IMG/VR virus record: IMGVR_UViG_3300042691_018783
Location: 1 to 46,022 of that record
Strand: one strand, 5' to 3'
Source: a virus
Length of the DNA: 46,022 nucleotides
This document shows positions 13,293-32,953 of the stretch, in pieces; the stretch's first letter is position 1; every line of letters begins with the position of its first letter. The notes under the pieces are model-generated. The model made no database searches. It was not told the DNA's origin and worked only from the letters and a program-made list of their open reading frames with translations. The translations under genes and the position numbers were made by a program.

Positions 13293-14831
13293 TCAACTTA
13301 GTTCATAAATTAAATCTGATTCAGGTAATACATACTGACCACCAATTATTTTGGTGTCTTTGTTTTCAAATATTAAAACCCCTTTAATTTTATTAGAGAA
13401 TATAATCCAATCTGTTGGGTACATTTTTACTTGTCCGCTATCTATTAATGTTATTTCTCCGTTTTCTTTTTTAGTATCTGAATAAGGTTTTATTTGCGCG
13501 GTTTTAGTTACCCCATCTATTGTAACTTTACAATCGACACCACTTATCATGTCTTCTTTATTACCTAATTCACCAATCTGTTCAACGTTACTCTCACCAA
13601 ATTTTTTCTTTAAAAGGTCTACAACGTGATTTTCAGTTCTACTACCAATACCATGGGTTAACCCAAGCCCACTCATTAAATTTTTAAATGTTGGGGAATC
13701 TTCATTAAAGATTCTATATTTAAATTCATCTAAAATACTAACAAACTTTTTTGTTTCACTTATTTGGACGAATGGTGGTTGACCTATTAATTTAATTATA
13801 GGTCTATTCATACTTTTTAGGACTTTATTAACGTCAACTAATAGAATACAAAAACAAGAATAATTAGTATTAAGTTTATTTATTATTGACCTACCATTAC
13901 CCTCCAAATCATAGATACCCGACATTTGACCTTCTCCGTACTCGTCATTACCGTAATATTTATTACTAAAAACTTCTTTCAGAATTGAGTCGATAGCTTC
14001 TCGATATATTTTTTTAACTTTAGGATTAATGTTAAAAATAAATCTAATAGCATCTATTGCGGACTTACTACATTTTTGGGACGGTGATTTAACGTTAATA
14101 GGTGTATTTTCTACAGATTCATTTAATTTTTTACTTCCTTTAGAATTATATAATTTGTTAACAAAATCCCAGTTAACCGCCTTCCAAAAGTTTTTAATAT
14201 ATTCGTCTCGTTTGTTTCTATATTTTAAATAATAAGCGTGTTCCCACAAATCAAGTCCTAAAATTGGGTACCCTCCATCTTCTACAACATTCATTAATGG
14301 GTTATCTTGATTAGGTGTTGACGTTATTTTTAGTCTACCATTTTTAGTTATTACTAGCCAAACCCAACCTGAACCAAATCTATCTTTAGCAATTTCTTCA
14401 AACTTAGATTGAAAGTTCTTATAAGACCCAAAATCTTTATTAATTCTTGATAAAACTTCACCCGAAAGTTTTTGAGTTTTTGGTGACAACATCTTCCAAA
14501 ATAAAGCGTGATTAAATGCGCCTCCTGCATTATTTCTAACTGTTTTATCAAATTTATTAATTGATTTTATAATCTCTTCTAATTCTAAATCACCACCTTT
14601 CTTTTTAGATAAAGCTTTGTTAAGTTTATCAACGTAACCTTTATAATGTTTATTATAATGATATGACATTGTTTCGGCGTCTATAAATTGTTTTAGTGCC
14701 GAATAAGAGTAAGGTAATTTTTCGATACCTATTTTTTTCATCTCAAACAAAAAGAGTTTTTCATTTTCTTTTTGTTCTTGTAAGATTAAGGATTCATTTA
14801 ATATCTTAATCTTATTTTCAAATTTTTTCAT
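13293..14831 (-). CDS. Fe/Mn superoxide dismutase fused to a nuclease-like domain
   Basis: A 512-residue two-domain protein. Residues ~38-230 are a complete Fe/Mn SOD: metal ligands are H58 (ETMSYHYNKHY), H108 (FNHALFW), D194 and H198 (LDLWEHAYY), and Y66 sits at the active-site gate. G103/G104 (NNAGGAFNH) and Q175 (STPNQDNPLM) are of the Mn-SOD pattern. It should convert superoxide to O2 and H2O2. Residues ~240-385 are unrecognised. Residues ~390-512 hold E400, then GVD (431-433) and QIKP (446-449), an arrangement like PD-(D/E)xK nucleases with Gln in place of the usual Glu. The same domain ends the zinc-ribbon protein at 17208. The N-terminal ~35 residues (KIKILNESLILQEQ) resemble a cleavable targeting peptide. 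LNES recurs at the SOD/nuclease boundary (236-239). It lies between neck and helicase genes. Confidence 0.85.
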   Translation of the reverse strand: MKKFENKIKILNESLILQEQKENEKLFLFEMKKIGIEKLPYSYSALKQFIDAETMSYHYNKHYKGYVDKLNKALSKKKGGDLELEEIIKSINKFDKTVRNNAGGAFNHALFWKMLSPKTQKLSGEVLSRINKDFGSYKNFQSKFEEIAKDRFGSGWVWLVITKNGRLKITSTPNQDNPLMNVVEDGGYPILGLDLWEHAYYLKYRNKRDEYIKNFWKAVNWDFVNKLYNSKGSKKLNESVENTPINVKSPSQKCSKSAIDAIRFIFNINPKVKKIYREAIDSILKEVFSNKYYGNDEYGEGQMSGIYDLEGNGRSIINKLNTNYSCFCILLVDVNKVLKSMNRPIIKLIGQPPFVQISETKKFVSILDEFKYRIFNEDSPTFKNLMSGLGLTHGIGSRTENHVVDLLKKKFGESNVEQIGELGNKEDMISGVDCKVTIDGVTKTAQIKPYSDTKKENGEITLIDSGQVKMYPTDWIIFSNKIKGVLIFENKDTKIIGGQYVLPESDLIYELS

Positions 14832-14873: not shown

Positions 14874-16655
14874 TTATCTCAGACTATTAATTCGATTCAT
14901 CATTTCCTCAACAATATCTCCCCTATCTAAATTGTCACCCATAACAGTCTCAAATATATTCTTCTTATTTGCCAATATATCATAGATTACTCCCTCGATA
15001 GTGTTTTCAAAAATTGGGTAATATACCGATACATTTGATTTTTGACCATATCTATAGGCTCTATCCTCAGCTTGTGAGTGGTCAGATGGTACAAATGATA
15101 AATCGTTCATAATAACCGCTTCACCCGCGGTTAAAGTTAAACCAACACCCGCAGCTTTTAAGTTACCAACAAAAACTTTAACTTTTTCGTTCTCTTGAAA
15201 TTGGTCAACCGCATATTGTCTTTGTGGTTTACTTGTACTACCATCTAATCTAACCGCTTGTTTACCAAAATGGTCGGCAATTTTATTTAGAGTGTCTGTA
15301 AAATTTGTAAAAATAATAACTTTTTTATCTTGGTCTAAAATATTTTGAGCCAATTCTATAGTGTTTGATATTTTTTCTTCAGCAATGACTTGTCTTACTT
15401 TCATTAACTTAGAAAATTGTACTGTTAGAGAATTTGATTCTTCTTTTTTGTTGTCGTACCAATCATAATATTCCCCCATTAATCCTTCATAGTGTTTGGA
15501 TTTTAATCTTAAATAGACGGGGGTTATGATTTTATCTGGTAAATCTAAAACATCAGTTTTTAATCTCCTCAAAACTTGTCTTGAGGTTCTATCTCGTAAT
15601 TCTTCTAAATTTGACGCTCCCGTAACATTCCACACCTTACGATTACCAGCTTTAAATTGATACCCTTGACAATATCTAATGGCATATGCCATCCAATTCT
15701 GAGCAACAGGACTTTCAATTAAACTTAGAAGATTAAAATAATTCATTGGTCTCGATGTCATTGGTGTACCTGTTAGTAACCATAATCTTTCGGCTCTTTT
15801 ACTAAAACTATTCACTAATTTAGTTCGTTGTGCTTGACCATTTTGGATATAGTGAGCCTCATCAATAATAATTAAATCAGGGTTAAATTGATAAATTAAA
15901 CTGTTTTCTTTTTCTTTACCTGTATCATAAAAGTTTCTCAAAATATCATAATTAACAATTACAAAATCATGCTCTAACGAAAAATTTTTACTTTCTGCAA
16001 TATAAACAGGTCTATCAGTGTAATTCGCGATTTCTCTTTGCCAATTTATTTTTAATGATGCGGGACAAACTATCAATATTTTTTTAGCCTTTGTTTCTAA
16101 TGCTGCAACTATTGTTGCGGTTGTTTTACCTAGACCCATATCATCAGCTAAAATAAATCTTTTTGAACCCGCAAGTTTCTCAACCGCAAGAACTTGGTGA
16201 TTTAGTAAAGGTCTGTGGGAATACTTAGAATAATCAATCTCGACTTTCTCAACCTTATGAGTTTTAATTATAGCACCTTTTGGTAACCAAAAATCATGTA
16301 ATACTTCGTTATCAAAAATTTTACCCCAAATATGATATGATTTTTCTTTTTCCGCCAATAATTTCTCTACCCAAACTTGTTCAGGAATTGTTGTGTATAA
16401 TTTTTCATCCGCAATTTTTTTTGCAAAATAAGGGTCTAATTCAACCCATTTTTTGGCGACTTTAGGTTGGGTTTCATGGAAAGTTAAAATGTAATCGGAT
16501 TGGGAACGAGTAGGATAAAATTTTTTATTATTTTCTTTTTTATGTTTTAAATTTAATATAAAATTATTACCTCCCGAATAAGTATCGAGAATTTCTAACG
16601 CCCTCATTTCAATTAATGATGAGGTATTACCTGTTGTAACTTTTACTTCTAACAT
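14874..16655 (-). CDS. SNF2-type DEAH-box helicase (UvsW-like role)
   Basis: A superfamily 2 ATPase of 593 residues. Walker A is DDMGLGKTT (171-179), motif Ia lies around ILIVCPASLKINW, the DEAH box is IIIDEAHYI (262-270) and motif III is LLTGTPMTSRP (~293-303). The C-terminal RecA lobe carries VIIFTNFTDTL, VRLDGSTS and a QAEDRAYRYGQ motif VI. The motif set is that of SNF2/SMARCAL1-like enzymes rather than the classical T4 UvsW. The role is probably branch migration or fork remodelling in recombination-dependent replication. The N-terminal ~150 residues, with a Trp-rich VWVEKLL...YHIWGKIF stretch, precede the ATPase core. It is the promoter-proximal gene of the minus cluster and is divergent from the gene at 16696. 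Confidence 0.9.
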   Translation of the reverse strand: MLEVKVTTGNTSSLIEMRALEILDTYSGGNNFILNLKHKKENNKKFYPTRSQSDYILTFHETQPKVAKKWVELDPYFAKKIADEKLYTTIPEQVWVEKLLAEKEKSYHIWGKIFDNEVLHDFWLPKGAIIKTHKVEKVEIDYSKYSHRPLLNHQVLAVEKLAGSKRFILADDMGLGKTTATIVAALETKAKKILIVCPASLKINWQREIANYTDRPVYIAESKNFSLEHDFVIVNYDILRNFYDTGKEKENSLIYQFNPDLIIIDEAHYIQNGQAQRTKLVNSFSKRAERLWLLTGTPMTSRPMNYFNLLSLIESPVAQNWMAYAIRYCQGYQFKAGNRKVWNVTGASNLEELRDRTSRQVLRRLKTDVLDLPDKIITPVYLRLKSKHYEGLMGEYYDWYDNKKEESNSLTVQFSKLMKVRQVIAEEKISNTIELAQNILDQDKKVIIFTNFTDTLNKIADHFGKQAVRLDGSTSKPQRQYAVDQFQENEKVKVFVGNLKAAGVGLTLTAGEAVIMNDLSFVPSDHSQAEDRAYRYGQKSNVSVYYPIFENTIEGVIYDILANKKNIFETVMGDNLDRGDIVEEMMNRINSLR

Positions 16656-16695
16656 TCTATATCTATAAAAATAATAATTATTTAGATATTTATCA
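16656..16695. promoter_or_regulatory. divergent intergenic region with late-type elements
   Basis: Forty bases separate the helicase (-) from the gp14-like gene (+). The minus strand contains TTTTTATAGATATAG just before the helicase ATG. The plus strand has TATTTAT at 16687-16693, almost touching the ATG at 16696. If that element is a -10 box, transcription would start inside the codons assigned here, so its role at this gene is uncertain. Confidence 0.3.
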
Positions 16696-17211
16696 ATGAT
16701 GAATAATAAAGTTCCAATAACAAGAGTAGGTAAATTTTTCGGTTCCGATGATTACAACTTAGATTTATCAATTGGTGAAGAGTGGTTGTATGGGGATATG
16801 AATTTTACTTTGGTATTATACAGAATAGACAGAATTAAGACTAAAACGGATGATGTTTATGGGGAATCTTTAAAAGATGGGATTAAATTTTTACCTCCTG
16901 TCGAATTTAAAGGGTATGTTCAAATAATGGCGCCTGAAAATAAAAATATCGGTACTTCTAAAGTAAATCAATTTGAGCCTGGTAATATTAAAGTTTCTGT
17001 GTATATTAAACAATTAGAGGAACTTGGTATTGATATAAGTCATGGTGATTATATAGGTTATTATGAGACTGAAGATAGGGTGAGATATTATGTTGTGAAT
17101 AATGACGGAAGGGTTGTATCAGACAACAAACACAATTACGCAGGATACAAACCATATTACAGAACAATTATGGGTTCTGCGGTAACTGAAAATGAATTTA
17201 GAGGTTTATGA
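16696..17211 (+). CDS. 14: neck protein, T4 gp14-like
   Basis: A 171-residue putative neck or head-completion protein. Key features are RIKTKTDDVYGES (~48-60), FLPPVEFKGYVQIMAPE (~66-82), NQFEPGNIKVSVYIKQLEEL (~92-111) and GIDISHGDYIGYYE (~112-125). The order 'DxxYGE, P.E.KG.V, .F....VSV....LEELGI....GDYI.Y' is what I associate with T4-type gp14 neck proteins, although this one is shorter than T4 gp14 (256). It is mostly beta, with no membrane segments. Its stop overlaps the next ATG (ATGA at 17208-17211), so translation is probably coupled. A tandem Met-Met start (16696/16699) leaves the exact start ambiguous by one codon. Confidence 0.5.
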   Translation: MMNNKVPITRVGKFFGSDDYNLDLSIGEEWLYGDMNFTLVLYRIDRIKTKTDDVYGESLKDGIKFLPPVEFKGYVQIMAPENKNIGTSKVNQFEPGNIKVSVYIKQLEELGIDISHGDYIGYYETEDRVRYYVVNNDGRVVSDNKHNYAGYKPYYRTIMGSAVTENEFRGL

Positions 17212-18725
17212 AAATAGTAATAACTGAAACACAAATATTAAATCTACTCGAAAAAATTAATTCAAGTAAAGTGTTGTGCGATAAATGTGGATGGTCTTGG
17301 AAGTTATCAGAAGGTGGTGACGACCCTTATATATGTCATAAATGTGGTCATAATAATTCTGACGAAGATTATCGAGGTAAAAATGTGATGGTTTATTATA
17401 ATTTACATAAACACACCTTTTCAGTAACATATAAATCAAAAGTTATTCTACATGCCGATTATATAAAATTAAAAGATGTTGAATTTAGAGTTAGGGGAGG
17501 AGGCAAAGAAAAAGTTAGGTCTGAAAAAAGGAAAAACGTACATGCGTTTGTTATTGGTAAATTAATAGATTATTGTGAATTTCCGTGTAAAGAGTTACCA
17601 AATGAAACTTCATCCAAAGTGATAACTTACGACCCATATAAATATGATTCTTTTGTTTATAAAGATAATAAAGAACCTGTTTATAAAGCTAAAGAGGTTG
17701 ATATGATTAATCATAAAAATAAAATTTTTGTTATCAATGAAATTAAATCCCATTTAATTAAAGAATCTGAGGAAAAACCTACAAAATATACGTACACAAA
17801 AATTGGTCTATTTGAGAAATTTAACACAAAAAGATTTTATTTTAATGATATTGTAGCCGTTGATGATGATTCCCCAATACCAAATAAAATTAAAATGTAT
17901 GGTGTTGATGGTGATTTTGAATTTAATGAAAATGAGATTTTTATAGATATGGATAAAAAAAGAGCCTATGTTGATAGGTTATCGTTAGAAAAGTATTATC
18001 CTTCTTTTGAATTAAAAAATCATAAAAAATTATCCGAAACAATTGGTATTACATCGTCCTCAGTTAGAGAAGCTTTAGAAAAAGCCTTCCCACAAAATTG
18101 GGTTAAACAAGATAGTGTTTATACACCAGGGTTACGAGGTATTTACACCATTGGGGAAATGATAGGGGATAAGTCAGAAGATTGGTCTATTATGAATTAT
18201 TTTGACACTAAAGACGAAATACATAGTTTAATTTATTTACAGTATTTTGAGGATTTAAAAAATGGTAAGGAAATAAATGATATTGTTGAGTGGATGTCGG
18301 ATTTATTTAAAAACAATACAAAATACACAAAACTATTAGTTAAAAGACAATGGGAATCTATTAAAAGAGGATTAAAATTAGAAAAAGATTCTGTTAATAA
18401 TTTTTTATATAGAATTGGTACAAATAATTTTATTTATTATCCACATGGGTCCATAATGGATAGATGGAAAGGTGTTGACGTTACCGTAGATGATGTTAAC
18501 TACCAAATTAAACCTTTAACAAATTATACAGAAGAAGATGGTAAGTATACTGTTAATACATATGGTATGAGAGATTATACATCTAAAAAGAGTGTAAATA
18601 AAATAGTGTTTGTAAATAAAAAAATGGCTTTAGTTTTTGATAACCAAAATTATAGTGTGGTAAGTAAAAACAAGGTAATTTTTAATGAAGAACCATTAAT
18701 ATTAAAAGAAGATGCCACTACCTAA
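17208..18725 (+). CDS. zinc-ribbon mosaic protein with GVD...QIKP nuclease-like C-terminus
   Basis: A 505-residue multi-domain protein. Residues 1-18 (MKIVITETQILNLLEKIN) form a short amphipathic leader. C24, C27, C43 and C46 make a CxxC-x15-CxxC zinc ribbon (CDKCGWSWK and ICHKCGH). Residues ~58-150 form a module with VYYNLHKHTFSV, KNVHAFVIGKL and TYDPYKYDSFV, which I recall as widespread in uncharacterised phage proteins. The centre (~195-400) is unrecognised. Residues ~395-490 carry GVDVTV (422-427), YQIKP (432-436) and KIVFVNKKMALVFDN, matching the C-terminus of the SOD fusion (GVDCKV, QIKP, WIIFSNKIKGVLIFEN). A PD-(D/E)xK-like nuclease is inferred. It lies between neck and tail-completion genes and overlaps both, so it may be packaged or injected; that is not shown by sequence. 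Confidence 0.6.
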   Translation: MKIVITETQILNLLEKINSSKVLCDKCGWSWKLSEGGDDPYICHKCGHNNSDEDYRGKNVMVYYNLHKHTFSVTYKSKVILHADYIKLKDVEFRVRGGGKEKVRSEKRKNVHAFVIGKLIDYCEFPCKELPNETSSKVITYDPYKYDSFVYKDNKEPVYKAKEVDMINHKNKIFVINEIKSHLIKESEEKPTKYTYTKIGLFEKFNTKRFYFNDIVAVDDDSPIPNKIKMYGVDGDFEFNENEIFIDMDKKRAYVDRLSLEKYYPSFELKNHKKLSETIGITSSSVREALEKAFPQNWVKQDSVYTPGLRGIYTIGEMIGDKSEDWSIMNYFDTKDEIHSLIYLQYFEDLKNGKEINDIVEWMSDLFKNNTKYTKLLVKRQWESIKRGLKLEKDSVNNFLYRIGTNNFIYYPHGSIMDRWKGVDVTVDDVNYQIKPLTNYTEEDGKYTVNTYGMRDYTSKKSVNKIVFVNKKMALVFDNQNYSVVSKNKVIFNEEPLILKEDATT

Positions 18726-19749
18726 AAAAATAAAAAAATATATACCATTAACAGAATCTAAAACTTTATTACCTAGACGACAAGAGTTATTAGATAAAAT
18801 AAATAAAGATGGAACTTATTTACCCAAATCAATTTTACATGCTGATTTGGATAAAGGATTTTTGGATTTTGTTAAGGACGAATTGAAATGTGTGGTTGAG
18901 GGTAAGGTTATACCTATGGTTGATATTATTATAACCACTCAAAATTGGTCTCAGTTTGTTGAGACATGGAATTTCCAAAACATTGATAAAAATGCGGAAC
19001 CTCCTTTTATTACGGTAATTAGAATACCTGAAGTAAAATTTGGTACTAACCCCGCGGTAATATATAACATTCCAAATAGGAGACAATATTTTTATGCTCA
19101 AGTCCCAACATGGGATGGACAAAGAGCTGGTATGGATATATATAAAATTCCTCAACCAGTTCCTGTAGATATTACATACCAAGTTAAAATAATATGTAAT
19201 AGAATGAGGGAACTTAACGAGTTCAATAAAAATATTCTTGAAAAATTCGCATCAAGACAGGCGTATCAAGTGATTAAAGGACATTATATTCCTATTATCA
19301 TGGGTAATATTTCTGATGAATCTGTAATGGATATTGAAAAAAGAAAATATTACATACAAACTTATGAGTTTACAATGTTAGGTTTTTTAATTGATGAGGA
19401 CGAGTTTGAGGTTTCTCCTGCGGTGACAAGATTATTACAGGTTGTTGAGGTTGACACTAAAACATCAAGAAGACAGATTAAAATGGTACAGAATATTGAG
19501 AAGGAACCAAGTGAGATTTTATTTATTATTGGTAATGATACAATATCTCAAGTGTTTGACTATATTGCAGATGTTAAAATTGTGGGGTCTGAGAATATTA
19601 GTAGTTATGATGTTTATATAAATAACAATTATTATGGTAGTGATATAACAGATATTCAAATAAACACAAACGATGTTCTTAAATTTGTAGTTACTAAAAC
19701 TAATATTAATTTAGAGTCTAAAATATTTTTATACGGAGTGTTAATTTAA
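18712..19749 (+). CDS. 15: tail completion / sheath stabiliser protein, T4 gp15-like
   Basis: A 345-residue protein likely to cap the tail and join it to the neck. The segment PQPVPVDITYQVKIICNRMR (~145-164), a long helix with EFNKNILEKFASRQAY, then YIPIIMGNISDES and YTFE-type strands (YIQTYEFTMLGFLIDEDEFE, ~219-238) match what I know of T4-type gp15 proximal sheath stabilisers. It is longer than T4 gp15 (272). The extra ~70 C-terminal residues (FIIGNDTISQVFDYIADVKI onwards) are beta-rich and could be an added domain. The ATG at 18712 overlaps the preceding gene by 14 bases. Its stop overlaps that of the convergent regulator gene by four bases. The gene ends the neck block immediately before the tail sheath. 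Confidence 0.55.
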   Translation: MPLPKKIKKYIPLTESKTLLPRRQELLDKINKDGTYLPKSILHADLDKGFLDFVKDELKCVVEGKVIPMVDIIITTQNWSQFVETWNFQNIDKNAEPPFITVIRIPEVKFGTNPAVIYNIPNRRQYFYAQVPTWDGQRAGMDIYKIPQPVPVDITYQVKIICNRMRELNEFNKNILEKFASRQAYQVIKGHYIPIIMGNISDESVMDIEKRKYYIQTYEFTMLGFLIDEDEFEVSPAVTRLLQVVEVDTKTSRRQIKMVQNIEKEPSEILFIIGNDTISQVFDYIADVKIVGSENISSYDVYINNNYYGSDITDIQINTNDVLKFVVTKTNINLESKIFLYGVLI

Positions 19750-23421: not shown

Positions 23422-24243
23422 ATGTTTAGAGATAGAAGATACATAGTAGAAGGTATTGACGAAACAGGTACACCTGATATGAAATATTATGCCTTTGATT
23501 GGGACGATAATATTATGACAATGCCAACAAAAATCATTTTAAAAGATGATAACGGAAAAGAGGTTGGGATGTCAACCGAAGACTTTGCAGAATATCGAAC
23601 TCAAATAGGTTCGGAACCTTTTGATTATGAGGGACACAAAATAGTTGGATTTGCTGAAGACCCTTTTAGATATTTTAATGTTAAGGGAGATAAACAATTC
23701 GTTGTTGATTCTATGATAGCTAAAACAGGTCCTGCATGGGGAGACTTTGTAGAAGCGATTAACAACGGGTCAATTTTTTCAATTATTACTGCTAGAGGAC
23801 ATACCCCAAGTATATTAAAAGAAGCGGTATATAATTTAATAGCCGCTAATAGAGACGGGATTAACTCCAAAGAACTAATCAAAAATCTTAAAAAATATAG
23901 AGATTTAGCTGATGAGGATAATTTATCGACAAGAGAATTAATAAATAATTATTTAGACCTTTGTAGATTTCATCCTGTAAGTTATGGTGAGGGTTCTGCA
24001 ACCAATCCTGAAGAGGGTAAGGTTAAAGCGATGAAAGATTTTATTCAGTATATTAAAGATGTATCAGAACATATTCGTAAAAAGGCATATTTAAAGAATA
24101 AAATATCTAATAATTTTAAATTACCTAGTATTGGATTTTCTGATGATGATATTAGAAATGTTGAGAAAATTAAAAGTCATTTTGAAGATGAACCTATGTT
24201 AAAGACTTACTCAACTGCAGGAGGAATTAAAAAAAGATATTAA
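23422..24243 (+). CDS. HAD-like phosphatase-fold protein
   Basis: A 273-residue protein with HAD superfamily signatures. Motif I is YYAFDWDDNIM with nucleophile D26 and general acid D28. Motif II is SIITARGHTP with T123. Motifs III/IV are not clear, although lysines and acidic residues follow (~145-215). The substrate could be a nucleotide, a sugar phosphate or a polynucleotide 5'/3' end; sequence does not decide. A charged helical C-terminus (IRNVEKIKSHFEDEPMLK) follows. It stands between sheath and tube genes behind its own promoter element, an unusual place for an enzyme. It could process a virion component or nucleotides. Confidence 0.65.
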   Translation: MFRDRRYIVEGIDETGTPDMKYYAFDWDDNIMTMPTKIILKDDNGKEVGMSTEDFAEYRTQIGSEPFDYEGHKIVGFAEDPFRYFNVKGDKQFVVDSMIAKTGPAWGDFVEAINNGSIFSIITARGHTPSILKEAVYNLIAANRDGINSKELIKNLKKYRDLADEDNLSTRELINNYLDLCRFHPVSYGEGSATNPEEGKVKAMKDFIQYIKDVSEHIRKKAYLKNKISNNFKLPSIGFSDDDIRNVEKIKSHFEDEPMLKTYSTAGGIKKRY

Positions 24244-27886: not shown

Positions 27887-30800
27887 ATGTCTGATAGTAC
27901 TTTATCTTTTTCATCATCCGCAACTTTTAGGGATACTTTGATGGCGAGAAATCTCCCACCTTATGATGTACCTGGTGTTTATACACCACCATCGGGACCG
28001 TTAAATTATGAAGTAGTACAGACAGTATCTAATGTTATTGATTCACCTGATGAATTAATAGCTAACGACCCATTTGCACAACAGTTATACCCTTTAAATG
28101 AATATGGACCTGAAGGAGGTTATAATTTAAATATAACATATAACGGACCCCCATTACCTGTCGACTCAAATAAAGGTGAGTACGACCCAACCGATACAGT
28201 ATTAGATTTAGTAAATGAATTCTATATTGATGCTGCTTATATTGAAAATAAATTTGGACCTGAAGGAGGGTTTAAAGATATGGTTGTTATCGATAATATC
28301 CAAAACAACAATAAATTATACCTACCTTATTGGAATCCACCTATTTTTACTCCTGCAGTTTATACCCCTTACGAGATATTAATTAATAACAATCCCGCAG
28401 GATTATCTCAGGATTCATTCATCGCTAAATTAGGAGCTCAACAATTAAGGTTCTTATTCCAAGAAAGAATTGCCGCAGAATTATTCCAAAATACAGTAGG
28501 GTTAGTCAATTTAGAATCGTTATCAGACCCTTTTGAAGCGAGTCTTATTGTTACGGGTCAAGAACCTTTAATATACAAAAATTGGAGAATTACCGTTGCT
28601 GAGAATCCGATTGTTGCGGCGGCGGATTTTGCAACAAGATTGACGGGGGCTTATTGGCCTGTATCACCAATACCTGGAGATTACTTTGAAGAGAACGAAC
28701 CTAATGCAGGGGCGTCCGCTCAAATATCAGGAGCGTTAAATGTTGTTAACCAATTAACAGGAGGGTTCTTAGGACCTATCTTAAATAAGACAAGAAACCC
28801 TTCTGAAATATTTTTAGCCAATACAGGTAATGGTCAAAGGTCAGCATTATTTGCAAACATAAATTATAACAGATATAAACCTGATTACAATAAAAACTTT
28901 GGTGGTTTATTAGGTGTTGCCCAAGCGGTAGTTAATTTGGCGGTTAATTTAATTAACCCTGATAACGGTACTTTAGTTGGTGGGTATTATGTTGGTAGTA
29001 GAAACGCTGAACCATCGACAATTACTTCACCACCTAACCAAGTTCCTGTTAACCCATTTGGTAAACAAGAACAAGCACCTGTATATGGTCCTTCAGAACT
29101 TGGTATTTTATATGAAGGTAATGAGAATAAAATTAATTTTGGTTTAGCGGGTAAATCTTCATCTGATGGTGGAGGTATTGACGGTCAGTTCGTTTGGACA
29201 TCACCAAAATATAAAGGAGATGCAGGATTTAAAGCAACTGTCGGAGGAGGTTCAGGAAGTTTAGACCAAGAGTTTAATCAAATATCTTCACAATATAGTA
29301 AATCTGAATCGACTAATATAACCTTCAAACAAAGCTCAATATTAGACCAAACACAAAGACTTGTTGACTCTGCCGATAATGTTTCAGGTATTAATAGACT
29401 TAAACATGTTGGTAATGCAATAAATCAAGTTAGTAAAGTATTCAATGATGGTTATAAAGAAATGACTAAAGGTTCTCAAGTGGTTAGTTATAAAGATAAT
29501 ACTACGGGAGAACAAGTTGGTACTGAATATTGTAGAGTCTTTACAAAAGATACTCCATATTATACATATGCGGATTTACAAAAAACAGATGGTATTACCA
29601 CATCAGGAAGAAGATTTACAAATTCTGTTTTTGATAATACATATAACTTAAACATTGCTCCACTTAAAAACCCTGGCTCGACTAACATACAACCAAATGC
29701 TAAGGGTGATTTAGTTGCTAAAAAATACATGTTCTCAATAGAGAACTTAGCTTGGAGAACATCAAGTAGACCTGGGTTTACTTATGATGAACTACCTGTT
29801 TGTGAGAAAGGACCTAACGGAGGTAGAGTTATGTGGTTCCCACCTTATAATTTAAGTTTTAGTGACTCAAGTGCTCCTAACTTCTCATCTACCAATTTTA
29901 TGGGTCGACCTGAACCAATTTACACTTATAATAACACAAGTAGAAGCGGAACACTTAGTTGGAAGATAATTGTTGACCACCCGTCAATAATGAATGTGTT
30001 AGTTGAAAAACAATTAAAAGGTCAAAACAACGAAAGAATAAATTCAATCATCGATTCATTTTTTGCGGGATGTGTTAAATATGATATATATGAATTAGCG
30101 AAAAAGTTCAATACAATTCCGACTAAAGATTTATTCACATATCAGGAAATATTAAATAACCCAAGATTAACACCTGAAGAATTGGCGGGTATTAATAAAG
30201 AGATACCTAAAGCAAACACTGGAGACGGTGGTGCGGGTTCTAGTACGACAGGTAATCAAGACACAGGTACAGATAAATCTTCAACCCCTGATACGTCAGC
30301 CAAGGATTTTGAGGGTAAGTATCAAGATTTGGCGTTTTATTTCCATAATGACAGACCCGACCCTAATTCAAGTAACACAGTTGCAAGTCAACCGTTTAAT
30401 GTTTGGTATGACTCATATATTGCACCTGATTTTATTCAAAAATACGTAAATAACGCAAATGCAACATTTAAATCTGATTCTAAAAGTAGAAACGTAAAAG
30501 AGTTTTTCGATACGGTTATTATTCCAAACTTTAATGCTATAGCTAAAAATGAGAAAAATTTTATAGTTGAAGCTTATAATTTAATTAAAGAAAAAAAGGC
30601 AAAAATTACTGTTGAAATGGTCGGGTCAGCTTCTGCACCTGCAAGTAAAGACTATAACGTAAATTTATCAAAAAGAAGAAACGATTCTGTTATTAAATTT
30701 TTAAGGGCGACAACTATTGGTGACGCTAATTTATCTAAGTATATTGATGACGGCAGTTTAAAATTCACATTATCAAGCGAAGGGGAAACAATTGTAATAC

Positions 30801-32953
30801 CTAAAGCCCCTGATGACGCGCCAGCTAAAGGACCTGGATTTGACGTTAATTGTACTACAGACATTAAAGATAAGAACGGAGTGGTCACCACGTTATCCCA
30901 AATATTTTCTGTTGACGCAATGGCATGTAGACGGGTTAAAATCGGTAAAATAAAAGTTGACATTAGCCCTGCCCCAACTACAACTACAACCTCAACCGCG
31001 GCTCCCCCACCGCCAGTCGTTGAGCAACCTAAAACAGAAAACATTCCTGTCACAAAACCAAAACCAACTGTTGAGGTGATAAAAAAATTAAAAGAAGGTA
31101 TTGCTAAAAAAATATTAAGAAACTTATTAACTGAGTGTGACTACTTTGAATTAATTAAAGAAGAAAACCCAATGGTTTATAATTCATTTAAAGAAAAGAT
31201 TAAATATTTTAATCCTACCTTCCACTCAATAACACCTGAAGGTTTAAATGCTCGTTTAACATTCTTAAATCAATGTGTTAGACCTGGTGAAACAATTCCG
31301 ACTATTGGTGCTGATGGTAAACCAAAATATAATGATGCGGTAAATACCTCATTTGGAGCTCCACCTGTATTGGTATTAAGAATTGGTGATTTCTACCATA
31401 CTAAAATAATACCAACAGGTTTACAATTCCAATACGAACCTATCACTTTTGATATGAACCCTGAAGGTATAGGAATCCAACCAATGATGGCCAATGTAAC
31501 ATTGAGTTTTAATATTATTGGAGGAATGGGTCTTGCAAAACCTGTAGAACAATTACAGAACGCATTGTCATTTAACTATTATGCAAATACTGAAATTTAT
31601 GATGAGAGAGCGGTTGCAACTGAAGATACCTCAGCGTTAGATAAAGAAGTTGTTGATGCAATATTAGCTTCAGAAATACCTGCAACAGTTAATAATGTGG
31701 ATACCCAACAAACAAATGATGGTGGCTCAACTATTGGTACAATAATAACTAATATTCCTGTACCTAGTGGACAGACAGGTGAAATTAGTTATGCTGAGAT
31801 TATGGATAAATTATTAACTGAAACTAAAAATTATTTTGAAACTGTTGTTAATAAATTAGAAAGTACTAATTTACAATATTCATATCCTGTTGTTGGGATG
31901 TTGGCTAAAGAATCAAAATATAATTTAGGAACTATATTTGAAGGTAATACAACTGATAATACTCCAGGGCCCTCAAACAGTGGTCAAACATCAACAATTG
32001 CAATATACGGTAAATCTGAAAAATTCCAAGACTATATTATTGAAGAATTTAAAAAAGGTATTAGTGATATTGATAGCGGTGCAAACCCTATTTTAGATAA
32101 ATTATTAAATAAATTTAAGTTTAGTCAAACACCTGAAAAACTTAACGGGGTTAAAACTAATATGAAAGAATATATTTCTAATTTAGAAAAAACATTCACA
32201 AATGGGGTATCAACAATAATGCAGGATTTAACCCTATTCCAACAAAATTACGTACAGTTAATTAGAAAAGTAAATTTAGTTGTAACAAAAACTGATGGTA
32301 AACTTTTGGACACTAATTTACCTAGAGTGTATAGCATTGCGGGAATACCAATTGATGGTGGTGATAATACATACGTTGAATTAACCAATGATTACAAAAC
32401 TTTAGATAAAGTACATGGTAAATTTGAGCTTCTGTTAAAAGATAACAAATATGCCCTAGCTTTTACGGATGATATATATGTCGGTACGGGAGATTTTAAA
32501 TTAAAAAATGTAAATGATTTTAAAACATCGGCAGATAAAACATTTTATTTAATAATGGCTAGAATATTAAGTGATAAAAATAAAAAAGATGAATTTATTA
32601 ATTATGTGATTAAAGGTGATTTATTAAATGTTAAAGACCCTGTTAACCTAAAAAATAAATTTGAAAATATAGTTGACGATTTAGGTAAAGATTATCAAAA
32701 AGAACTAAAAGAAGAAGAAAAAGTATTTGATAAATTAAAAAAAGATTCAATTTATAAAGACTTAACTGAAGGTATTGAAGATGAAATGTATAAGTCAAAA
32801 AAGACTAGAAAATTTAATTATACGACAGTACCAAACCAAAACCAAGAAATTGTGCAATTCCAAACTGACGAGATTAGAAATTTGTATAAATCGGTTAATG
32901 TTAACCCAAAAGAAGATACCTTTGACGGTAAAGTTAAATTTAGTAAAACATAA
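27887..32953 (+). CDS. large baseplate / tail-tube-cap protein (gp48/gp54-like) with OmpA-like insert
   Basis: A 1688-residue baseplate protein. Residues ~684-760 (SRSGTLSWKIIVDHPSIMNV) and ~1161-1241 (LRIGDFYHTKIIPTGLQFQY, PMMANVTLSFNIIGGMGL, LQNALSFNYYANTEIYDE) carry the patterns of T4-type tail-tube initiator proteins gp48/gp54. Between them, at ~818-968, is an OmpA C-terminal-like module with VEMVGSASAPASKDYN and LSKRRNDSVIKFL (~909-940). It keeps the NxxLSxxR segment including the peptidoglycan-contacting Arg, but lacks the usual Asp of TDxxG. A Thr/Pro linker (TTTTTSTAAPPPP, ~1027-1045) follows. The C-terminal ~300 residues are helical and Lys/Glu-rich. It ends in TAATG shared with the gp53-like gene. 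The baseplate role is fairly sure, the exact T4 equivalent less so. Confidence 0.65.
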   Translation: MSDSTLSFSSSATFRDTLMARNLPPYDVPGVYTPPSGPLNYEVVQTVSNVIDSPDELIANDPFAQQLYPLNEYGPEGGYNLNITYNGPPLPVDSNKGEYDPTDTVLDLVNEFYIDAAYIENKFGPEGGFKDMVVIDNIQNNNKLYLPYWNPPIFTPAVYTPYEILINNNPAGLSQDSFIAKLGAQQLRFLFQERIAAELFQNTVGLVNLESLSDPFEASLIVTGQEPLIYKNWRITVAENPIVAAADFATRLTGAYWPVSPIPGDYFEENEPNAGASAQISGALNVVNQLTGGFLGPILNKTRNPSEIFLANTGNGQRSALFANINYNRYKPDYNKNFGGLLGVAQAVVNLAVNLINPDNGTLVGGYYVGSRNAEPSTITSPPNQVPVNPFGKQEQAPVYGPSELGILYEGNENKINFGLAGKSSSDGGGIDGQFVWTSPKYKGDAGFKATVGGGSGSLDQEFNQISSQYSKSESTNITFKQSSILDQTQRLVDSADNVSGINRLKHVGNAINQVSKVFNDGYKEMTKGSQVVSYKDNTTGEQVGTEYCRVFTKDTPYYTYADLQKTDGITTSGRRFTNSVFDNTYNLNIAPLKNPGSTNIQPNAKGDLVAKKYMFSIENLAWRTSSRPGFTYDELPVCEKGPNGGRVMWFPPYNLSFSDSSAPNFSSTNFMGRPEPIYTYNNTSRSGTLSWKIIVDHPSIMNVLVEKQLKGQNNERINSIIDSFFAGCVKYDIYELAKKFNTIPTKDLFTYQEILNNPRLTPEELAGINKEIPKANTGDGGAGSSTTGNQDTGTDKSSTPDTSAKDFEGKYQDLAFYFHNDRPDPNSSNTVASQPFNVWYDSYIAPDFIQKYVNNANATFKSDSKSRNVKEFFDTVIIPNFNAIAKNEKNFIVEAYNLIKEKKAKITVEMVGSASAPASKDYNVNLSKRRNDSVIKFLRATTIGDANLSKYIDDGSLKFTLSSEGETIVIPKAPDDAPAKGPGFDVNCTTDIKDKNGVVTTLSQIFSVDAMACRRVKIGKIKVDISPAPTTTTTSTAAPPPPVVEQPKTENIPVTKPKPTVEVIKKLKEGIAKKILRNLLTECDYFELIKEENPMVYNSFKEKIKYFNPTFHSITPEGLNARLTFLNQCVRPGETIPTIGADGKPKYNDAVNTSFGAPPVLVLRIGDFYHTKIIPTGLQFQYEPITFDMNPEGIGIQPMMANVTLSFNIIGGMGLAKPVEQLQNALSFNYYANTEIYDERAVATEDTSALDKEVVDAILASEIPATVNNVDTQQTNDGGSTIGTIITNIPVPSGQTGEISYAEIMDKLLTETKNYFETVVNKLESTNLQYSYPVVGMLAKESKYNLGTIFEGNTTDNTPGPSNSGQTSTIAIYGKSEKFQDYIIEEFKKGISDIDSGANPILDKLLNKFKFSQTPEKLNGVKTNMKEYISNLEKTFTNGVSTIMQDLTLFQQNYVQLIRKVNLVVTKTDGKLLDTNLPRVYSIAGIPIDGGDNTYVELTNDYKTLDKVHGKFELLLKDNKYALAFTDDIYVGTGDFKLKNVNDFKTSADKTFYLIMARILSDKNKKDEFINYVIKGDLLNVKDPVNLKNKFENIVDDLGKDYQKELKEEEKVFDKLKKDSIYKDLTEGIEDEMYKSKKTRKFNYTTVPNQNQEIVQFQTDEIRNLYKSVNVNPKEDTFDGKVKFSKT

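Follow-up and report, generated by a model that had tools for sequence, protein, structure and literature searches.

The viral genome record IMGVR_UViG_3300042691_018783 (IMG/VR) was analyzed over a stretch of 46,022 nucleotides, and "window" refers here to this whole 46-kb stretch and not to a single feature. Two genes of the window encode proteins that carry different N-terminal domains in front of a common C-terminal module (Table 1). Protein A consists of a short tag, an Fe/Mn superoxide dismutase (SOD), a linker and the module, whereas protein B places a tag, a zinc ribbon, a Phage_L5_gp82-like (L5-gp82-like) domain, a linker and a small beta domain ahead of it. An initial annotation of the window had noticed that both proteins end in alignable segments. 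The shared tail is best read as an undescribed QxK nuclease family, by all libraries searched, within the PD-(D/E)XK superfamily, and the fold and the modularity of this nuclease module are well supported.

Homology and domain layout of the two proteins

The segments quoted in the initial annotation were found exactly as given, with GVDCKV...AQIKPY...WIIFSNKIKGVLIFEN in protein A and GVDVTV...YQIKPL...KIVFVNKKMALVFDN in protein B. The Smith-Waterman score of the two tails was 76, compared to 40 ± 6.2 for shuffled sequences (1 of 2000 shuffles reached 76), and pairwise BLASTP aligned them with an E value of 3e-5. The profiles were built on sequences from viral contigs, 56 with tail A and 13 with tail B, and further searches extended these sets. 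Profile-profile comparison gave 96.4% (E = 1.2e-9), and deeper alignments compared with hhalign gave 97.4% over 204 columns (E = 1e-11). Both tail alignments are shallow, with an effective number of sequences (Neff) of ~2.3, and more weight is therefore placed on conservation, fold, paralogues and modularity.

The aspartate of the GxD motif was invariant in the families of tail A (50/50) and tail B (13/13), and so were the glutamine and the lysine of QxK (49/49 and 13/13, counting sequences that cover the site). Together with the proline of QxKP and a conserved helix glutamate, which the initial annotation had not named, these positions never changed in either family, and E, D and QxKP were also kept across paralogues; D and QxK are the positions on which the initial annotation had staked its claim. 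The proposal of a shared C-terminal domain thus proved correct except for its extent: the homologous stretch covers ~220 residues and not just the last 85 and, towards the N-terminus, takes in a helical subdomain in which S-x-x-N is conserved. The span to which the pair had been assigned (14,874–18,725) contains the helicase gene, a 171-amino-acid (aa) gene and the zinc-ribbon protein B, while the SOD protein (13,293–14,831) lies just outside it.

The N-terminal parts differ as had been described, with an Fe/Mn-SOD in protein A versus a zinc ribbon and a Phage_L5_gp82 domain in protein B according to Pfam. Orthologues of protein A (512–519 aa) occur in dozens of viral contigs. Both SOD domains are present together with His, His, Asp and His ligand motifs, which were kept in 60 of the 60 fused SODs checked; these motifs we take to be the metal ligands by assignment from SodA/SodB. 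The ~280 residues following the SOD were without annotation, as were ~330 residues of protein B beyond its L5-gp82-like domain. Among the protein B orthologues, the zinc ribbon is partial in one contig (L059) and absent from two (L062 and L063). The L5-gp82-like domain (PF25735/PHROG 586), here fused to the nuclease module, stands alone as a tagged protein in many relatives. In Bacillus phages such as phiNIT1, this domain was also observed within the stretches annotated as terminal redundancies. The small beta domain was seen once more behind another tag (MRELIKRILKES) in an open reading frame (ORF) that is cut by a contig end (L166, 5950–6270).

Table 1 Features of proteins A and B and of their neighborhood in the window. 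Arrows stand at the end of an L/I-x-E motif.
Feature	Position	Strand	Evidence or remark
Protein A, 512 aa: tag, Fe/Mn-SOD, linker, nuclease module	13293..14831	-	ORF; Pfam SOD N and C
A, N-terminal tag, residues 1-31	14739..14831	-	L/I-x-E at LNES 11-14, LQEQ 17-20, LFEM 28-31
A, SOD domain, residues 36-226	14154..14726	-	Pfam PF00081/PF02777, E 1.9e-40 and 3.4e-23
A, SOD-nuclease linker, residues 235-253	14073..14129	-	LNE↓S at 236-239; AlphaFold predicted local distance difference test (pLDDT) <50
A, shared module, ~residues 251-512	13293..14081	-	N-terminal helical subdomain and PD-(D/E)XK core
A, PD-(D/E)XK core, residues 390-512	13293-13664	-	Predicted catalytic E400, D433, Q446, K448
Protein B, 505 aa: tag, zinc ribbon, L5-gp82-like domain, linker, beta domain, nuclease module	17208..18725	+	ORF; Pfam PF25735, PHROG 586
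B, N-terminal tag (MKIVITETQILNLLE)	17208..17255	+	Two L/I-x-E
B, zinc ribbon (CDKC...CHKC)	17277..17354	+	Weak Pfam double zinc ribbon match
B, L5-gp82-like domain, residues 57-170	17376..17717	+	Pfam E 3.5e-29
B, fusion junction (IKSHLIKESEEKPTK)	17736..17783	+	I-K-E↓S; free-standing relatives stop just upstream
B, small beta domain	17784..18002	+	Also tagged, ahead of nuclease modules, in L204 and L205; in truncated L166 ORF
B, shared module, ~residues 283-505	18054..18725	+	Core, residues 386-505; predicted catalytic E392, D424, Q433, K435
SNF2-type helicase	14874..16655	-	Pfam 1.2e-30, PHROG 62; lies between the A and B genes, not part of the module
Conserved 171-aa gene	16696..17211	+	Borders the slot holding B
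Insertion slot	17208-18711		Between the 171-aa and 345-aa genes
345-aa gene	18712-19749		Other border of the slot

Predicted fold of the shared module

The AlphaFold models of the two tails (pLDDT 85.5 for A and 87.4 for B) were searched separately against known structures, and the PD-(D/E)XK superfamily filled nearly all top rows with alignments of ~100 residues and Z scores of 6–9. Residues 156–278 of the tail A model matched the archaeal Hjc (2wcw; Z = 9.0, root-mean-square deviation 3.2 over 103 residues, the best single match of this tail), I-Ssp6803I (8.7), SPARDA (8.6), NhoI (8.5) and DpnI (7.0). For residues 215–334 of the tail B model, the Z scores were 7.6 for I-Ssp6803I, 7.4 for both SPARDA and NhoI, 6.9 for Hjc and 6.4 for DpnI. 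Values of 7–9 are borderline alone, and the case therefore consists of one superfamily topping the lists of two separately modelled proteins with D and QxK in place. An acidic residue after strand 1/2, followed by (D/E/Q)-x-K on the next strand, was found in both A and B. A caveat on the fold assignment is that the helix between strands 3 and 4 was not clear in the DSSP assignment of either model. The shared tail very probably adopts a PD-(D/E)XK fold and is likely to be enzymatically active as a nuclease, with a metal site that would be formed by D...Q-x-K and the helix glutamate and joined to the conserved N-terminal helical subdomain. For the latter subdomain no convincing fold match was seen, though it was searched only within the whole tails.

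No family in Pfam, PHROGs or PADLOC covers the tail domain, which had nothing above the cut-off in Pfam, no PADLOC match and only weak partial PHROG matches. Taken with the predicted fold and the invariant E, D and QxK, this supports the earlier suggestion of an undescribed nuclease family. Hjc has the core fold in common with the tails; it is a small stand-alone dimer and uses E-x-K, not Q-x-K. Closer in motif are the SPARDA DREN nuclease (9qcc, 9jsz) and I-Ssp6803I (2ost), both among the best structural matches of the two tails, which combine a like alpha-beta core (predicted for the tails) with helix Glu, D and Q-x-K in matching order, at an identity of only 11–19% over the aligned core. 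In DREN, D41, Q60 and K62 are the reported catalytic set, and DREN itself resembles I-Ssp6803I (PMC12205087). Profile searches of PDB sequences, including for homology to I-Ssp6803I or DREN, returned nothing significant and chance matches only; the agreement is one of fold and motif. Unlike these two enzymes, the tails possess an extra N-terminal subdomain of ~130 residues and have neither an Argonaute partner nor an intron context, and the phage proteins bear tags and SOD or L5-gp82 partners.

It is very improbable that the tail is a degenerate PD-(D/E)XK scaffold that binds protein or DNA without cutting and, for example, blocks a host defence in the manner of T4 IPI, which is injected and inhibits a restriction enzyme (PMC9958956). 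The four putative catalytic residues were kept in every sequence that covers the sites, which would be unusual for a pseudo-enzyme.

Architectures, paralogues and genomic context

The nuclease module was detected in at least six architectures, which strongly supports the idea of a reusable module on different front ends. Besides tag-SOD-nuclease (protein A) and tag-zinc ribbon-L5gp82-beta-nuclease (protein B, some versions of which have an incomplete ribbon or none), these comprise tag-nuclease without SOD (L025, L094, L119 and others), tag-SOD-nuclease-nuclease (L202, 873 aa), tag-beta-nuclease (L204 and L205), and a stand-alone form encoded between the genes for prohead protease and scaffold (paralogue C). 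Large phages with T4-like heads thus appear to use the nuclease as a movable module on different partners. The clearest case is L202, which is syntenic with the window. Its SOD and that of the window share 72% identity, its two nuclease modules are 37–38% identical to paralogue C, and their identity to the window tail is 33% over shorter stretches. Judged from these identities, L202 represents a domain swap in which the front end was kept and the back end exchanged.

Paralogue C is a 318-aa protein of a 322-kb relative that was read in pieces (G001, 118104–119060) and was matched by each of the two tail profiles (E = 2.5e-10 and 2e-8). The gene order in this genome is terminase-like, portal-like, two small genes, Peptidase_S77 (the prohead protease, 117086–117811), a 69-aa gene, paralogue C, scaffold-like and T4-like capsid; the protease was assigned by Pfam and the capsid by tblastn, and terminase, portal and scaffold by position and sequence appearance only. 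Hence, one member of the nuclease-module family is encoded inside a head-assembly cluster. Nuclease folds, PD-(D/E)XK-like ones among them, serve in DNA packaging, and the location of paralogue C would suit a component that handles DNA inside the head, either trimming or clearing it at packaging or binding the genome uncut. We consider this improbable, because paralogue C was found in some relatives only, whereas an A-type copy at a different site was present in all 10 of 10 large related phage records and fused to SOD in 8 of them. SOD and L5-gp82 would also be ill-suited partners of a packaging enzyme, and the terminase-like gene of G001 is separate.

Each of the 10 large records carries one or two copies of the module. 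SOD was found only as the fusion in 8 of them and was not found in the other two (G003 and G004), including as a separate gene. Further carriers comprise a 735-kb phage (LR756501; L226, 9743–10615), whose homologue has E, GVD and QCK (profile E = 4e-21), and a 1113-aa marine phage protein retrieved by structural search. The structure of UniProt entry A0A6J5L953, a 501-aa SOD of an uncultured phage, matched tail A with a query TM score of 0.87 and 41% identity; very likely this is the same SOD-nuclease fusion, already deposited with its nuclease half unnamed. A pattern scan of sequenced bacterial and archaeal genomes gave 78 matches and zero relatives of the domain. The Maribacter phages Colly_1 and Molly were considered as isolated carriers and rejected, as tblastn gave E values of 3–8 only and the annotated protein failed the paralogue profile.

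Gene B occupies an insertion slot that is bordered on both sides by conserved genes and measured 0–2.4 kb in ~60 relatives. Its contents were almost all tagged ORFs starting with MK(I/V)(I/L)(I/L)TE, among them B-type genes and shorter L5gp82 proteins. Two further proteins of the window had no PHROG match, namely a 273-aa protein with the motif YYAFDWDDNI, encoded between the genes for tail sheath and tail tube (23422–24243), and a 1688-aa protein in the tail/baseplate region (27887–32953).

Tags, junction motifs and a possible route into the head

An N-terminal tag with L/I-x-E was present in A, B, C, L204 and L205. In phage T4, the prohead protease gp21 cuts after L/I-X-E, and internal proteins bear N-terminal targeting propeptides of 10–19 residues (PMC9026906). 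L/I-x-E is a short motif, and so the assignment of a tag from the sequence alone is weak. In G001, the consensus MKK-I-R-LTES-D-L..LVKR-I-I-x-E (with variants) starts about two dozen otherwise unrelated ORFs. The tag pattern matched 27 ORFs compared to 8.9 ± 2.8 for shuffled N-termini and 6.2 ± 2.3 for internal windows, and 57 of 355 ORFs had two L/I-x-E in their first 30 residues (22.5 ± 4.2 expected). A run of small ORFs at ~26–45 kb of this genome (L172–L173), many of them MKKxIRLTES-tagged and otherwise unrelated, provides a candidate list of head cargo. Searches for the tag peptide in isolated phages (tblastn with a 23-residue query, which is weak) gave no match, and a literature search on the tag sequence (LTES) yielded nothing related.

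The same motif recurs between domains. The disordered SOD-nuclease linkers (LNES...VLSE↓G) contained at least one L/I-x-E in 43 of 43 cases (7.4 ± 2.4 expected) and two sites in 32 (2.8 expected), and their glutamates were 100% and 96% conserved while the flanking residues drift. The case is even clearer for protein B. In relatives, the L5gp82 proteins that stand alone finish at ...FVINEI or ...FITKQ or shortly thereafter, and the linker following this end point in the fusions had an L/I-x-E in 14/14 (1.7 ± 1.2 by shuffling), with junction motifs that differ in their surrounding letters (LSES, IKES, IRES, LNES, ITEQ and LREA). The shuffle controls preserve composition and not relatedness. A gp21-type protease (Peptidase_S77) was encoded by 7 of the 10 large relatives. 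In G001, INE↓A lies at residues 58–61 of the capsid protein, a position comparable to the 65-residue propeptide of T4 gp23.

We lean towards the interpretation that the module is a new QxK nuclease family that is moved into the head as tagged, protease-processed cargo. A head-cargo system is favored because it is the most economical account, combining a tag for prohead entry, a releasing protease and fusion genes with several products. From the sequences, packaging with processing appears reasonably probable. The tag would most likely steer the cargo protein into the prohead core and then be cut by the gp21-type protease of the phage. Since the fusions keep a tag-like L/I-x-E linker at their junctions, SOD-nuclease, L5-gp82-nuclease and SOD-nuclease-nuclease proteins would be cut during maturation into SOD, L5-gp82-like and nuclease parts. 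The released parts may enter the host along with the DNA, where SOD would remove superoxide and limit oxidative damage and the nuclease would most likely cut host or competing DNA early, a target that we propose only tentatively. The phage DNA could escape through modification, a sequence preference, or a nuclease that is inactive before cleavage. It is also conceivable, if somewhat doubtful, that these phages build head cargo as polyproteins, with the shared tag marking dozens of proteins and the inter-domain repeats releasing several per gene, the new QxK nuclease and the SOD among them.

By analogy, the module would work like a QxK PD-(D/E)XK nuclease and, if packaged, like the internal proteins of T4 and the Dar proteins of P1. 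Like T4 IPI–IPIII and Alt, which carry a capsid targeting sequence and are processed by gp21, the proteins here have a short N-terminal tag ending near L/I-x-E, and their phage lineage encodes a gp21-type protease and a T4-like capsid protein. Unlike T4 internal proteins, the cargo here would be a nuclease and a SOD, tags also stand between domains, and the proteins are known here from genes alone. The Dar proteins of P1, such as DarB, are packaged in the head and delivered to the host, with a packaging signal in the first 30 N-terminal residues (PMC9024508). DarB acts against restriction, and P1 has no reported shared consensus tag, as opposed to the tag common to many ORFs here. Literature searches on virion SOD or virion-packaged nucleases of huge phages were without a relevant result.

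The initial suggestion of virion cargo is backed by circumstantial evidence only (the L/I-x-E tag, the junction motifs, the gp21-type protease of relatives, and the paralogue between protease and scaffold), and its comparison with toxin-like proteins received no direct support. Several observations speak against the proposed cargo nuclease. In protein A of the window, LNE↓S is kept in the linker and the second site (E14 column), present in most relatives, is lost, and L/I-x-E also occurs within the folded parts of A and B. As the shuffle tests were made on related sequences, their z-scores overstate independence. Foldseek against PDB reached a best E value of 8.4e-3 and none below 1e-3, at probabilities of 0.99–1.00. 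As the window covers only a 46-kb fragment, neither its protease nor its capsid gene was seen, and the domain is known here from uncultured phages alone. A nuclease packed beside the phage DNA would need a restraint, and none was found. Finally, the homologue of the 735-kb phage lacks such a tag, which would also fit an intracellular, non-packaged nuclease acting early or midway in infection in host-DNA breakdown, recombination or junction resolution that arose by ordinary gene fusions and whose tags serve another purpose. Holliday-junction resolvases are among the closest folds and the protein A gene adjoins the helicase gene, which also favors this alternative. We nevertheless regard it as rather unlikely, because the L/I-x-E tag is seen again at junctions and also stands on about two dozen small ORFs without relation to each other, one paralogue lies inside a head operon, and gene B runs into the beginning of a conserved gene that adjoins the tail sheath gene.

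Our results provide a name and a probable activity for a domain found in 10 of 10 large related records and in a phage that ranks among the largest known, for which databases so far name the SOD half only. Should the tag serve as a signal for capsid targeting and cleavage, the proteins that these phages inject could be listed directly from their genomes. Polyprotein head cargo, if true, would amount to a modular scheme of packing and release that exceeds the one of T4, and sequence alone would then suffice to predict which proteins many uncultured giant phages eject. Delivery of a nuclease alongside the genome would also pose the problem of how the phage DNA is spared, and such a nuclease, paired with an antioxidant enzyme, would be a new kind of weapon or shield for the first minutes of infection.

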